From Chthonomonas sp. (GTDB taxonomy: Bacteria > Armatimonadota > Fimbriimonadia > Fimbriimonadales > Fimbriimonadaceae), in NCBI GenBank assembly GCA_016788425.1, contig JAEURQ010000003.1, positions 403,282 through 467,281 of the forward strand: DNA of 64,000 nt, read 5' to 3'. Below, piece after piece: positions 3,128 through 7,538 of the stretch (the stretch's first letter is position 1; each line of letters starts with the position of its first letter). The position numbers and the translations under genes are program-made. Under the pieces are notes generated by a model. It saw only the letters and a program-made list of their open reading frames with translations. It searched no databases and was not told the origin of the DNA.

Positions 3128-3259
3128 GTCGTGCTCCTAGATTCTACGCGGGTGGGGTGGGGTTCGGCTTGCGGATAGGGTGTTTGGGTTTCTTGGGGTC
3201 GCGAGTTTGGCTCAGCGAGTTTTGCACAGGCACTCAGCTTTCAGCTCAGCGCCAGCACT

Positions 3260-3333
3260 AGCCGCGTCGGGGCGGGAGGACGACGCGAGCCCCGCGAGCA
3301 AGTCCGGGGGAGTGGCCGTGGGCCGACGCGGCT
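3260..3333 (-). repeat. GC-rich intergenic repeat with inverted ends, copy 1 (inverted relative to the others)
   Basis: The element begins with AGCCGCGTCGG (3260-3270) and ends with the exact reverse complement CCGACGCGGCT (3323-3333). The interior matches the reverse complement of the copies at 5146-5218 and 7229-7301 almost base for base. It sits between the ubiD-like gene and the first unit of the duplicated operon. The rest of 3128-3410 shows no gene. Confidence 0.85.
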
Positions 3334-3341
3334 GAAACTTG

Positions 3342-3410
3342 GTCATCGATTTTCGCCAGATGTGGCTTATACTGTGTGTTCAGGTGGATTTCGCCTACGA
3401 TTTGTGTCTC
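3342..3410 (+). promoter_or_regulatory. Conserved upstream region of duplicated operon, copy 1
   Basis: These 69 bases match 5407-5475 with about five changes. Read as codons, four of the five would alter an amino acid, so the stretch behaves like a leader or promoter rather than coding sequence. TATACT at 3368-3373 is a good -10 candidate; no convincing -35 is seen. Confidence 0.5.
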
Positions 3411-4181
3411 ATGAGGAACTTGGAAATTGCGCTGAAGACGAATTCTCTCAACGAGGGGAGTGGGCTTTGGCAGATGAAGCAAGAGCTAAACACGTTCTTT
3501 ACTGGAACTGAGCCAGCGAGTAGCTTCTCGAGCGACCGTGTCATGCGCGGCCATGTGGAGTTGTGGGCGGGGGACGGGCTTCAGCACGCGATCCCGACGG
3601 ATTCGCACCCGAAGGATTTGAGTGCGCATTATCTTTACGTTTGGCACCCGGACATGGGTGGGTACGTCGCGGCTGATCCAGAGGATCCGCCCAATCCACC
3701 TCCTACGAAGTTCTCCTACCGGACGCTGCTGGATAAGGAGGGCCGGTTTGCCGTGAAGCTGCCGACGACTTGGGCCTATGTGTTCGTCCGCACAGAGCAA
3801 TCGCTGTGGCGCAAGGTCGGCTTTGTGGTACGCGGCCCTGGTGGGCTCACTGATGAGTCGCGAGTCTTCCTTCCTTGGCAGGATATCAATGCATGGCAGA
3901 CTCTAAAACTGGCCTACGGCGACATGGATGAAGATAATGTCATTGAGAACTTCTATCCTGAAGATCACGTTGGAGGCTGGATGAATTCGGCCGCAACCGA
4001 CTTGAATCAATACGATGCCAGAATTGACGCAGTCGTTAGACTTATTACTGGTTCCCAAGAACAGAGCATCAATTACTATCATCTCGGCGTTGATCTTAAC
4101 CGTAATCGAAGGATTGAAGATGATGATTATCAGATTCTTGCAAAATATCCCAATGGAAACATCGCAGGAGCCACTCCATGA
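3411..4181 (+). CDS. Uncharacterised protein with C-terminal dockerin/EF-hand-like calcium loop, copy A
   Basis: The protein is about 256 residues from ATG 3411; ATG 3474 is an alternative, and the frame stays open upstream to a TTG at 3339. I recognise no full-length family. The central part has YRTLLDKEGRFAVKLPTTWA and VFVRTEQSLWRKVGF, a beta-rich pattern like carbohydrate-binding or carboxypeptidase-regulatory-like modules. The end carries GVDLNRNRRIEDDDYQI, matching one EF-hand/dockerin loop with ligands at positions 1, 3, 5, 9 and 12. No clear signal peptide is present. Its stop overlaps the start of the PEP-CTERM gene by four bases (ATGA), so the two are probably co-translated. A diverged paralogue with the same partner lies at 5476-6252. 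Confidence 0.65.
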   Translation: MRNLEIALKTNSLNEGSGLWQMKQELNTFFTGTEPASSFSSDRVMRGHVELWAGDGLQHAIPTDSHPKDLSAHYLYVWHPDMGGYVAADPEDPPNPPPTKFSYRTLLDKEGRFAVKLPTTWAYVFVRTEQSLWRKVGFVVRGPGGLTDESRVFLPWQDINAWQTLKLAYGDMDEDNVIENFYPEDHVGGWMNSAATDLNQYDARIDAVVRLITGSQEQSINYYHLGVDLNRNRRIEDDDYQILAKYPNGNIAGATP

Positions 4182-5098
4182 AAGTGATTGTTCAGTTAGT
4201 GGCGTTGACGTTTGTGGTGCAGTCTGCTGCCACCACCCGTGATTTTCGCTTTTACTTATCTTACGGCGATCAACAACTCGTAGATCTGGCAAGGTCAGCT
4301 GGGGCCGACCCACATGCTGTGATTGGCAGCGAGATTCCGGCTAACTCTGGTCTTAGGGTCCCGTCAATGTCACAATTCAAGGTAAGGCTTGGCGTCCAGC
4401 ATATTGACAACGGATTTGGGCCCGCGTATGCCCAGACCCTCTACAACTTTATTGCATATGATCAAGCGAGCTTGACAAATGTTAGCTATACCACTGCCCC
4501 ACCTCTGGACCAGTTTTCATTCCGCAAGATATCACCGGTGTTTACGGGAGCTGGGCAGTTATTCCAAAACCTTAGCAACTATCGCCAAGCCATTGTCTAT
4601 GATTTGAACAGAAATACCGTTGATGGCAACTCCGACGGAGTACCTGACGTAGCTACATACCGCTCTACCTCCGGCAACGGGGTCGGAGCGTACATATCGG
4701 GAAACGACGATCCTCGACAAGTGAGACCCGTTGGAGCTTCCTACGCGATACGGCCTTATTATGTTTTGCCTAGTGGTATTTCCGGAAACGGTTGGTTCAA
4801 AATTCAGCCTGGCGAAAGAATCGATATTTGCGACATTAGTTATAACAATTCGTTGCAAGTTAATGAAAGCTACGGTTCGCAACCAGGTGAGACTGGATTG
4901 CTCCTTCACACGACTAACGCATCTCAAACAGGTTATGGAAACAATCTTGGTTATCGACGCACATCTGGCGTAGACCTCGAAGAATGGCACAATTTTGGCG
5001 CGAAGTACACCCTTATCGGGGCTGCGCCTGTGCCAGAGCCGGGGGGGATGGTGGGCTTGCTCGCTGGACTCGGGATGTTGATTCGCCGTCGCCGCTAG
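4178..5098 (+). CDS. PEP-CTERM sorting domain protein, copy A
   Basis: The protein has 306 residues. The signal peptide is MKVIVQLVALTFVVQSAA. A calcium-loop-like stretch DGNSDGVPDVA lies at about residues 149-159, resembling thrombospondin type 3 or EF-hand loops. The C-terminus is a textbook PEP-CTERM tag: PVPEP, then a hydrophobic segment, then RRRR. Proteins of this class are exported, cut by an exosortase and placed at the cell surface or in exopolysaccharide. No exosortase gene is in the window. The first gene of the operon overlaps it by ATGA. It is paralogous to 6249-7181, and the last coding bases and downstream DNA of the two copies are nearly identical. The specific function is unknown. 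Confidence 0.8.
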   Translation: MKVIVQLVALTFVVQSAATTRDFRFYLSYGDQQLVDLARSAGADPHAVIGSEIPANSGLRVPSMSQFKVRLGVQHIDNGFGPAYAQTLYNFIAYDQASLTNVSYTTAPPLDQFSFRKISPVFTGAGQLFQNLSNYRQAIVYDLNRNTVDGNSDGVPDVATYRSTSGNGVGAYISGNDDPRQVRPVGASYAIRPYYVLPSGISGNGWFKIQPGERIDICDISYNNSLQVNESYGSQPGETGLLLHTTNASQTGYGNNLGYRRTSGVDLEEWHNFGAKYTLIGAAPVPEPGGMVGLLAGLGMLIRRRR

Positions 5099-5145
5099 CT
5101 CCGCTCCGACCCAACCCCGCGCAAAGCGTTCTGAACCCACCTTCC

Positions 5146-5218
5146 GCCGCGTCGGCCCACGGCCACTCCCCCAGACTCGCTCGCGGGGCTCGCGTCGTCC
5201 TCCCGCCCCGACGCGGCT
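5146..5218 (+). repeat. GC-rich intergenic repeat with inverted ends, copy 2
   Basis: GCCGCGTCGG (5146-5155) and CCGACGCGGC (5208-5217) form the inverted ends. It is nearly identical to 7229-7301 and to the reverse complement of 3260-3333. It follows the first PEP-CTERM gene by 47 bases. Confidence 0.85.
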
Positions 5219-5264
5219 GCGGCCAGCCCTGATAGGAGCAAAGTGGATGGCGAAAGTGCCCAAG

Positions 5265-5312
5265 CCGGACTCGCTCGCGGGGCTCGCGTCATCCTCCCGC
5301 TCCGACGCGGCT
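5265..5312 (+). repeat. Partial copy of the GC-rich repeat (3' part only)
   Basis: From CCGGACTCGCTCGCGGGGCT to CCGACGCGGCT this repeats the right two-thirds of the element, without the left inverted end. The bases after it (CTGAGACTGGCGCTA) recur after the full copy ending at 7301. Confidence 0.7.
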
Positions 5313-5345
5313 GAGACTGGCGCTAATGAGAATTTAAGTGGTTTG

Positions 5346-5397
5346 CCGGAGCTGAGCCGCTCCCTGGGCTCGCGTCGCCCTCCCGCTTCGACGCGGC
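5346..5397 (+). repeat. Degenerate copy of the GC-rich repeat
   Basis: A weaker version of the same right-hand segment (GGGCTCGCGTCG, then CCTCCCGC and GACGCGGC). It ends just before the conserved operon leader. With the other copies it fills the 5099-5475 gap, in which I see no gene. Confidence 0.5.
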
Positions 5398-5406
5398 GGA
5401 AAGTTA

Positions 5407-5475
5407 GTCATCGATTTTCACCAAATGTGGCTTATACTGTGTGCTCAGGCGGATTTCGCCTACGATTTGTGTCTC
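5407..5475 (+). promoter_or_regulatory. Conserved upstream region of duplicated operon, copy 2
   Basis: Counterpart of 3342-3410, including the TATACT -10 candidate. High identity continues about 110 bases into the coding region and then drops sharply. Confidence 0.5.
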
Positions 5476-6252
5476 ATGAGGAACTTGGAAACTGCGCTGA
5501 AGACGAATTCTCTCAACGAGGGGAGTGGGCTTTGGCAGATGAAGCAAGAGCTAAACACGTTCTTTACTGGTACTGAGCCAGCGAGTAGCTTCTCAGGCGA
5601 CCGCGTGATGCGTGGGAACGTTGTCTGGCGCACGGGCGAGGGCCTTGACGATCCATTGCCGTCCCAGTCGGATCCGGGCGACAAGAGTTCGCACTACTTC
5701 TATGTATGGCACCCGGACATGGGTGGTCCGCTTGGAACTGGTCTAAACCCGCCGACGCGGTATTCCTACCGCACTCTGCTCGACAAGGGTGGTCGCTTTG
5801 CGGTGAAACTCCCAACCTCGTGGGCGTATGTATTCGTCCGAACCGAGCAGTCGTTGTGGCGGAAAGTCGGTTTTTCCGGACGCGGACCTGGTGGGACGAA
5901 TAGTCCGCCTCCGGGTGAGTCGCGTACGTACTTACCTTGGCTAAATATCAATGCGTGGCAACCGCTGGAACTGGCCTACGGAGATATGGATGAAAACAAT
6001 GAGATCAAGAACTCATCCACATCTGGTCATCCGGACGGATGGATGAATGCTTCAGCTACGGACCTTGATCAATGGAAGGCTAGGGATACTGCAAGCGTTA
6101 AGCTTGTCACCCCTTTTGGGAAATTGGCGATCAACTACTACCACCTTGGCGTCGATCTAAATCGAGACCTTAGCGTTGATAGTTATGATTTTCAGGCACT
6201 CGACAAGTACCCCGCCAACCCTGCTCAGCCAATCTATGGAGCCCGGCAATGA
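5476..6252 (+). CDS. Uncharacterised protein with C-terminal dockerin/EF-hand-like calcium loop, copy B
   Basis: This is the paralogue of 3411-4181, about 258 residues from ATG 5476 (ATG 5539 is possible; the frame is open from ATG 5425). The first 40 residues are almost identical to copy A, and the rest is clearly diverged but alignable, for example YRTLLDKGGRFAVKLPTSWA and VFVRTEQSLWRKVGF. The C-terminal loop VDLNRDLSVDSYDFQAL fits the EF-hand/dockerin pattern D-x-N-x-D-x-S-V-D-x-x-D better than copy A. It overlaps the second PEP-CTERM gene by ATGA. The function is unknown; a surface calcium-dependent or cohesion role is only a guess from the loop and the partner. Confidence 0.65.
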   Translation: MRNLETALKTNSLNEGSGLWQMKQELNTFFTGTEPASSFSGDRVMRGNVVWRTGEGLDDPLPSQSDPGDKSSHYFYVWHPDMGGPLGTGLNPPTRYSYRTLLDKGGRFAVKLPTSWAYVFVRTEQSLWRKVGFSGRGPGGTNSPPPGESRTYLPWLNINAWQPLELAYGDMDENNEIKNSSTSGHPDGWMNASATDLDQWKARDTASVKLVTPFGKLAINYYHLGVDLNRDLSVDSYDFQALDKYPANPAQPIYGARQ

Positions 6253-7181
6253 AGCTGTCAAGGCTGATCATCATTGGAACTTTGTCGCTCGCATTGTTAC
6301 CAGAGATAACATTGGGCCAAAGGCAGTTTAGGTACTTCCTCACATATCAAGACTCGCAGCTGGTGCAATTGGCTCGTGGTAGCGGTTACGATCCTGATGC
6401 GGAGTTAGGGGCGGAGATCCCATCGAATGTTCCACTCTCTGTTCCATCGATGTCCTCGTTCACCGTGGGGTTGTCAATGCAGTATGTTGCAAATGGCTTT
6501 GGGTCGCTGTTTTTGAAAGGGTTCCGGAACTACGTGGTTTACGATCGAGCTAACGGTGATAATGGCGCCTACTTATCGGCGGTACCGCTAGATGAGCACT
6601 CCTTCCGTAAAGTTTCGCCAGTCTACACCGGAATAAGCCAACTCTCTCAGAACTTGAGCAACTTTGGATCTGGAGTAGTTTATGATTTACATGGAAATAC
6701 AGTGGATATAAACGGTGATGGCATGCCCGACGTTGCAACGTATTCTGGAAGTGTTGCGCGTGGAGTAGGCGCATATGTAGCGGGCAACGATAATGCGGTG
6801 CAGATTCGGGGCGTTGGAACTTCATACTTTATGACACCTGACTATGACCTTATGAATGGATTTATCGGTTCAGGATGGTTCAAAATTCTTCCAGGCGCGA
6901 CTCTTCATTTCTGTAATGCGACGTACACTAACACACTCGGTATTGGCGAAACGTATGGTAATGGAGGTGGGGAGACGGGCTTGCATCTGTACACCACCGG
7001 TGGGGAGCAAACTGGCTATGCCAACAACATGGGATTTCTCCGGAACGTTGACGACTATCCCGAAGCTTGGCAGAATATTGGTGCGAAGTACACCCTCATC
7101 GGGGCTGCGCCTGTGCCCGAGCCGGGGGTGATGGTGGGCTTGCTCGCTGGACTTGCGATGTTGATTCGTCGTCGCCGGTAA
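6249..7181 (+). CDS. PEP-CTERM sorting domain protein, copy B
   Basis: The protein has 310 residues: signal peptide MKLSRLIIIGTLSLALLPEI, body, and a C-terminal PVPEP tag with hydrophobic segment and RRRR. It aligns along its length with copy A, including FRKVSPVYTGISQLSQNLSN and the calcium-loop-like DINGDGMPDVA. The coding end and the bases that follow (through CAACCCCGCGCAA to TTCTGAACCCACCTTCCGCC) closely match copy A, which shows that the duplication included downstream DNA. It is the second gene of the second operon unit. Confidence 0.8.
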   Translation: MKLSRLIIIGTLSLALLPEITLGQRQFRYFLTYQDSQLVQLARGSGYDPDAELGAEIPSNVPLSVPSMSSFTVGLSMQYVANGFGSLFLKGFRNYVVYDRANGDNGAYLSAVPLDEHSFRKVSPVYTGISQLSQNLSNFGSGVVYDLHGNTVDINGDGMPDVATYSGSVARGVGAYVAGNDNAVQIRGVGTSYFMTPDYDLMNGFIGSGWFKILPGATLHFCNATYTNTLGIGETYGNGGGETGLHLYTTGGEQTGYANNMGFLRNVDDYPEAWQNIGAKYTLIGAAPVPEPGVMVGLLAGLAMLIRRRR

Positions 7182-7228
7182 GTCGCCTGCGACTCAACCC
7201 CGCGCAACGCGTTCTGAACCCACCTTCC

Positions 7229-7301
7229 GCCGCGTCGGCCCACGGCCACTCCCCCGGACTCGCTCGCGGGGCTCGCGTCGTCCTCCCGCCCCGACGCGGC
7301 T
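7229..7301 (+). repeat. GC-rich intergenic repeat with inverted ends, copy 3
   Basis: Ends GCCGCGTCGG (7229-7238) and CCGACGCGGC (7291-7300). It differs from 5146-5218 at about one position. It lies downstream of the second PEP-CTERM gene at the same relative place as copy 2. Confidence 0.85.
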
Positions 7302-7350
7302 GAGACTGGCGCTATGGAGGAGTGAGATCGTTTGCGAAGTCAGGGCTGTA

Positions 7351-7380
7351 CCGGACTCGCTCGCAGGGCTCCCGTCCCGT
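7351..7380 (+). repeat. Short remnant of the GC-rich repeat
   Basis: CCGGACTCGCTCGCAGGGCT matches the core of the element, and then the sequence diverges. No gene is seen between 7182 and the tRNA at 7453. Confidence 0.45.
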
Positions 7381-7452: not shown

Positions 7453-7538
7453 TGGCGGAGAGAGAGGGATTCGAACCCCCGGTGGTTGCCCACAACGGTT
7501 TTCAAGACCGCCGCATTAAACCGCTCTGCCATCTCTCC
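7453..7538 (-). tRNA. tRNA-Ser (anticodon UGA)
   Basis: Read on the minus strand, GGAGAGA pairs with TCTCTCC, the discriminator is G and CCA is encoded. The anticodon loop CTTGAAA gives TGA. A long variable arm (TGTGGGCAACCACC) is present, as expected for tRNA-Ser, and the T-arm contains GGTTCGAATCC. Confidence 0.95.

Follow-up and report, generated by a model that had tools for sequence, protein, structure and literature searches.

The window, meaning the whole 64,000-nucleotide stretch of DNA that was analysed, comes from the 2.67 Mb, four-contig genome of an uncultured Armatimonadota bacterium, whose named relatives put it close to Fimbriimonadaceae, and holds two adjacent gene pairs, which we call cassettes A and B. 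The original prediction described two units at 3411-5098 and 5476-7181 with the same gene order and ATGA overlaps, and the open reading frames were confirmed at these positions. Cassette A consists of gene 1 copy A (3411..4181, plus strand, 256 aa) and gene 2 copy A (4178..5098, plus strand, 306 aa), and cassette B of gene 1 copy B (5476..6252, plus strand, 258 aa, 67% identical to copy A) and gene 2 copy B (6249..7181, plus strand, 310 aa), with gene 1 and gene 2 overlapping by ATGA in both units. Each pair is preceded by a shared upstream block (UP) on the plus strand, located at 3330..3410 for cassette A, where it contains a GGCTTATACTG..GTG.TCAGG core (putative -10 TATACT) and a 5′ leader, and at 5395..5475 for cassette B.

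The cassettes are surrounded by copies of a repeat element (REP). A full element, made up of a 70-nt core (GCCGCGTCGG...CCGACGCGGC) and flanks, lies inverted on the minus strand at 3248..3343 and directly abuts the cassette A promoter block. The 3′ side of cassette A carries a plus-strand REP array (5135..5400) with a full element at 5135-5232 and partial ones at 5265-5324 and 5358-5400 (spacing 94 and 86), and the UP block of cassette B begins at the GACGCGGC end of the last of these. Cassette B is followed on the plus strand by a full element (7218..7313) and a partial copy (7351..7376). As predicted, both units are bracketed by inverted-end repeats: the elements at 3248-3343 and 7218-7313 form a 96-nt inverted repeat that is 91% complementary, and for the 70-nt core the window gives three matches against a chance expectation of none. 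A tRNA-Ser gene (anticodon TGA) is found on the minus strand at 7453-7538, its 3′ end facing the right edge of the repeat-bracketed block.

The genome contains 28 REP copies at E ≤ 1e-5, all at four gene 2 loci, with full 70-nt elements followed by shorter ones approximately 95 nt apart. These four dispersed loci hold eight close cassettes, two per locus, and an at least partial REP follows gene 2 in each of the eight. Three of the four loci have inverted REPs on both sides of the block, REPs also stand between cassettes, and a small duplication in the REP preceding the second cassette is common to two loci. The UP block was found in eight genome copies, one ahead of each REP-type cassette, with strong matches only at the four close loci. 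All eight cassettes have in common the promoter-like core GGCTTATACTG and the opening bases of their first ORF (ATGAGGAA), whether that ORF is gene 2, as in five (with a signal peptide like MRKIAGLGF), or gene 1, as in three (internally deleted in one). REP ends have a 10-bp terminal palindrome able to pair, and REP folding was no stronger than that of shuffles (z -0.05 to -1.3). A role for REPs as intrinsic terminators was considered and found no support, with folding at the level of shuffles and no terminator-like site found. In other genera of the family, REP-like elements (74–78% identical) occur singly, with unrelated genes as neighbours (L193:4435-4497, L194:4461-4532, L195:5560-5644), so this class of repeat predates its link with gene 2.

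The identification of gene 2 as a PEP-CTERM protein held up, with tag scores of 22.5 and 22.7 bits against TIGR02595 (cut-off 16); the score against Pfam PF07589 was 13.2 bits, below its cut-off of 20.7. Signal peptides were judged by hydropathy, and that of gene 2 shows a maximum of 2.3–2.4 in a 13-residue stretch starting at residue 3 or 6. The predicted DxNxDGxPD-like loop is also present, its residues D149, D153, G154 and D157 being invariant in all eight close paralogs, and conserved loops of this type hint at calcium binding. A structure model from a 5-row alignment had a mean pLDDT of 40, too low to give a fold. The genome encodes a single exosortase (PF09721 at C2:322771, E 6.5e-50), with sugar transferase-like, Wzz-like and glycosyltransferase-like genes as neighbours by eye, and we infer that gene 2 proteins reach the surface through it. 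They are probably matrix or surface proteins, and a matrix or adhesion role would suit the family.

Near full-length matches place gene 2 in a family of 17 PEP-CTERM paralogs in its own genome, most of which stand two or three in tandem. Judged from their sequences, the gene 2 bodies are old paralogs under purifying selection. Three other tandem arrays (L029:3936-6618, L030:3680-6257 and L026:5477-7335) have mostly ATGA overlaps and no REPs; the gene 2 array at C4:203-205k is immediately preceded by a gene pair that by eye resembles a toxin-antitoxin pair (L030:6346-6928). Units A and B had been taken for a tandem duplication, which the analysis did not confirm. In the body tree, gene 2 copy B groups with the two paralogs at G000:C4:264-266k (support 99/100) and not with copy A; forcing copies A and B together, the grouping that a duplicated operon implies, costs 62 log-likelihood units and is rejected by the AU test (p ~1e-86). 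No pairing of the loci's first and second genes is seen in this tree. Units A and B are not simple tandem duplicates.

Identity along the two units is instead a mosaic. The 5′ ends are 93–98% identical (3324-3523, the first 200 bases, against copy B), and the first 40 codons of gene 1 copies A and B are near-identical at the DNA level. The middle is mostly 33–77% identical, with about 55% over most of gene 2, and the 3′ end and downstream DNA return to 86–92%, bearing out the near-identical downstream DNA noted before. Identity is mostly 85–98% in the promoter block, the anchor DNA and the repeats, while the bodies are saturated at synonymous sites: third-position identity is about 0.33 in the body (0.30–0.38 over most of its length) against 0.77 in the anchor, and 0.37 against 0.78 when only codons of shared residues are counted. 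Synonymous identity of the anchor is 0.72–0.79 within arrays but 0.17–0.51 between arrays. Codon bias is disfavoured as the source of anchor identity since it would raise the between-array value as well, leaving homogenisation within arrays as the simplest cause. Anchor DNA is also array-specific and homogenised in three further arrays that lack REPs, and homogenisation can therefore proceed without the repeats. The process responsible would be recombination, although it is possible that assembly collapse of repeats contributed to the near-identical flanks.

Gene 1 has four matches in its own genome, each directly upstream of a gene 2, and two are truncated, one an N-terminal piece at C4:214390 and the other a C-terminal piece at C2:292009. 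The C4 copy (L025:5391-5618 = G000:C4:214390-214617) is internally deleted to about 76 codons, most of the gene being lost; its end still overlaps the next gene 2 by ATGA, as if the coupling had outlived the domain. Gene 1 was present only in its own genome among 85 family genomes, and 291 phylum genomes gave no credible match elsewhere, three hits with E 1e-5 to 3e-3 looking chance-level when read. No relatives were found in GTDB r220 genomes, phages, plasmids or viral contigs, and no Pfam or NCBIfam model matched over its cut-off.

The dockerin/EF-hand-like loop predicted for gene 1 was upheld in part. Copy B scored 15.5 bits against PF00404, below the gathering score of 22.9, and copy A had no hit; the best PDB sequence matches are dockerins, spanning the second loop at E 0.13. 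That loop (DLNR...D...L) is invariant in the three distinct members of gene 1. With E values up to 10 allowed, the genome has 44 PF00404 dockerin-type matches, of which 22 exceed the Pfam cut-off, and many of its proteins (L138-L157) share a near-identical C-terminal module with two DxNxD loops (NGDxNGDNIVDIADYxxLAxAFD...ADLNGDGIVDIADYxxLAxxFDxVGD). A profile of the module built from 20 own-genome proteins matched all three distinct gene 1 proteins with its blocks in the same order, and 0/1000 shuffles reached the score for each of them, though at 4–11 bits these scores mean remote kinship with the module and not membership. Copy A and the C2:292k copy each show the loop 1 and loop 2 blocks in order, copy B the loop 2 block only, all with low scores. 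Gene 1 thus appears to be a divergent, signal-peptide-less, remote relative of its own genome's dockerin-type C-terminal module.

No hydrophobic signal peptide was seen in the hydropathy of the gene 1 N-terminus, which leaves no visible export route for an extracellular docking role. The stretch MWLILCAQADF upstream of gene 1 was rejected as a signal peptide: it lies in the shared, seemingly non-coding block, which differs between copies by indels and by loss of an ATG. Past codon 40, codon positions 1 and 2 are conserved above position 3 (e.g., 0.93/0.90/0.42 over columns 100–140), a pattern that shows purifying selection on this part of the gene. The structure model, from a 2-row alignment, had a mean pLDDT of 32, likewise too low. 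The most likely reading of gene 1, and the weakest step in our account, is an accessory ORF coupled to gene 2 in translation, whose product would descend from a dockerin-type module and be cytoplasmic or poorly exported while still constrained.

The pairing itself had been read as a calcium-dependent two-part surface structure in which gene 1 docks on an anchored gene 2, the two being duplicated as an operon. All four gene 1 copies do precede a gene 2, both proteins have conserved DxNxD-type loops and gene 1 is under purifying selection. However, 13 of the 17 gene 2 paralogs have no gene 1, so the two genes need not occur together, an outcome that the original prediction had itself named as refuting it; no signal peptide is seen in gene 1, one cassette retains just the 76 or so codons noted above, and the gene 2 bodies of A and B are not sisters. 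An exosortase is present in 76 of the 85 family genomes and gene 1 in this one only, so the exosortase, whose co-occurrence had been proposed as a check, does not track the pair. We regard a docking structure as unlikely. The paired-operon reading arose because one of several loci was seen, and the gene 1-gene 2 pair is best read as one local version of a cassette family, not as a new two-part machine.

The explanation we favour, and consider likely, is that these are lineage-specific, multi-locus exosortase surface-protein cassettes in which repeated ectopic recombination maintains the likeness of the ends and has at times moved bodies. Each cassette would be built from a promoter block, a signal peptide, a variable body, a PEP-CTERM anchor and a GC-rich repeat array. 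Ectopic homologous recombination acting through the conserved joints, whether by gene conversion or by unequal crossing-over, would keep the ends near-identical and would stop where the bodies are too divergent, with occasional transfer of bodies between loci. In its three cassettes gene 1 would use the promoter and start-codon position taken by gene 2 in the other five, coupled to gene 2 through the ATGA overlap. A stronger form, in which the conserved joints (anchor tag, REP array, promoter, and signal peptide or gene 1 start) are designated recombination ends that swap bodies among the four loci in the manner of antigenic variation, seems to us rather doubtful.

The bracketing inverted REPs could also be the transposition ends of a mobile composite element that moves the whole two-cassette block. 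The bracketing at three of four loci, the two-by-two arrangement over dispersed loci and the REP duplication common to two loci speak for this, but no transposase or integrase was recognised by eye among the neighbouring ORFs at any of the four loci, REPs stand between cassettes as well as around them, first and second genes are unpaired in the tree, and other genera have single REP-like copies next to unrelated genes. This makes such an element a minor possibility. Direct constraint on the DNA, with promoter, tag and repeats conserved as DNA or RNA signals without recombination, would fit the promoter-like core of the UP block and the pairing potential of the REP palindrome. Against it, a fixed signal should be common to all arrays while the anchor DNA version differs per array, and neither folding above shuffles nor a terminator-like site was found, leaving this account quite improbable.

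Gene 2 resembles the PEP-CTERM/EpsH (exosortase) system of Haft et al. 2006 (PMC1569441), whose proteins have a signal peptide, C-terminal PEP motif, hydrophobic helix and basic cluster, and in which a genome carries many copies, several genes share upstream DNA and the exosortase lies near exopolysaccharide-type genes; the likeness is in tag architecture, copy number, shared upstream DNA and perhaps exosortase context. It differs in that the gene 2 bodies come from a single family that has expanded into tandem arrays, that by eye the upstream DNA is unlike a sigma-54 type site, and that homogenisation has affected the tag DNA inside arrays. PepA-type PEP-CTERM proteins of floc formers have a presumed extracellular matrix role (PMC9850573), and gene 2 is like them by type, not by sequence comparison, as a PEP-CTERM protein with a presumed matrix role, although no link to prsT or RpoN is shown here. 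Gene 1 is like a type I dockerin (PF00404) in its one or two candidate DxNxD-type loops and its weak, ordered match to the genome's module, and unlike one in scoring below the Pfam cut-off, standing alone and lacking a signal peptide.

Helicobacter Hop and Anaplasma Msp2 are paralogous surface-protein families with conserved ends and a variable middle. The cassettes may be comparable in their homogenised 5′ and 3′ ends, divergent bodies and proposed exchange between loci, but no expression site or silent copies are shown, the copies seem to be complete genes and the organism is a non-pathogen. If our reading is true, exosortase-anchored proteins here diversify with interchangeable control and sorting ends and diverging bodies, and the family would offer a clear and testable example, outside pathogens, of how a bacterial sorting tag can evolve in modular fashion. 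Were body swapping true as well, it would mean antigenic-variation-like surface change in an environmental, uncultured Armatimonadota bacterium.

The other genome of the genus has six gene 2 copies with strong matches, four of them in tandem, and no gene 1. The ubiD neighbourhoods in three relatives are not syntenic and no empty site was found there. A further genome, G069 (98% complete), has gene 2 relatives with PEP-CTERM tags and no exosortase match. Gene 2 relatives in other genera are singletons next to coaD (L112, L116, L113), so the coaD vicinity is possibly the ancestral gene 2 location. Among own-genome gene 2 copies, the most similar one lies in L031.
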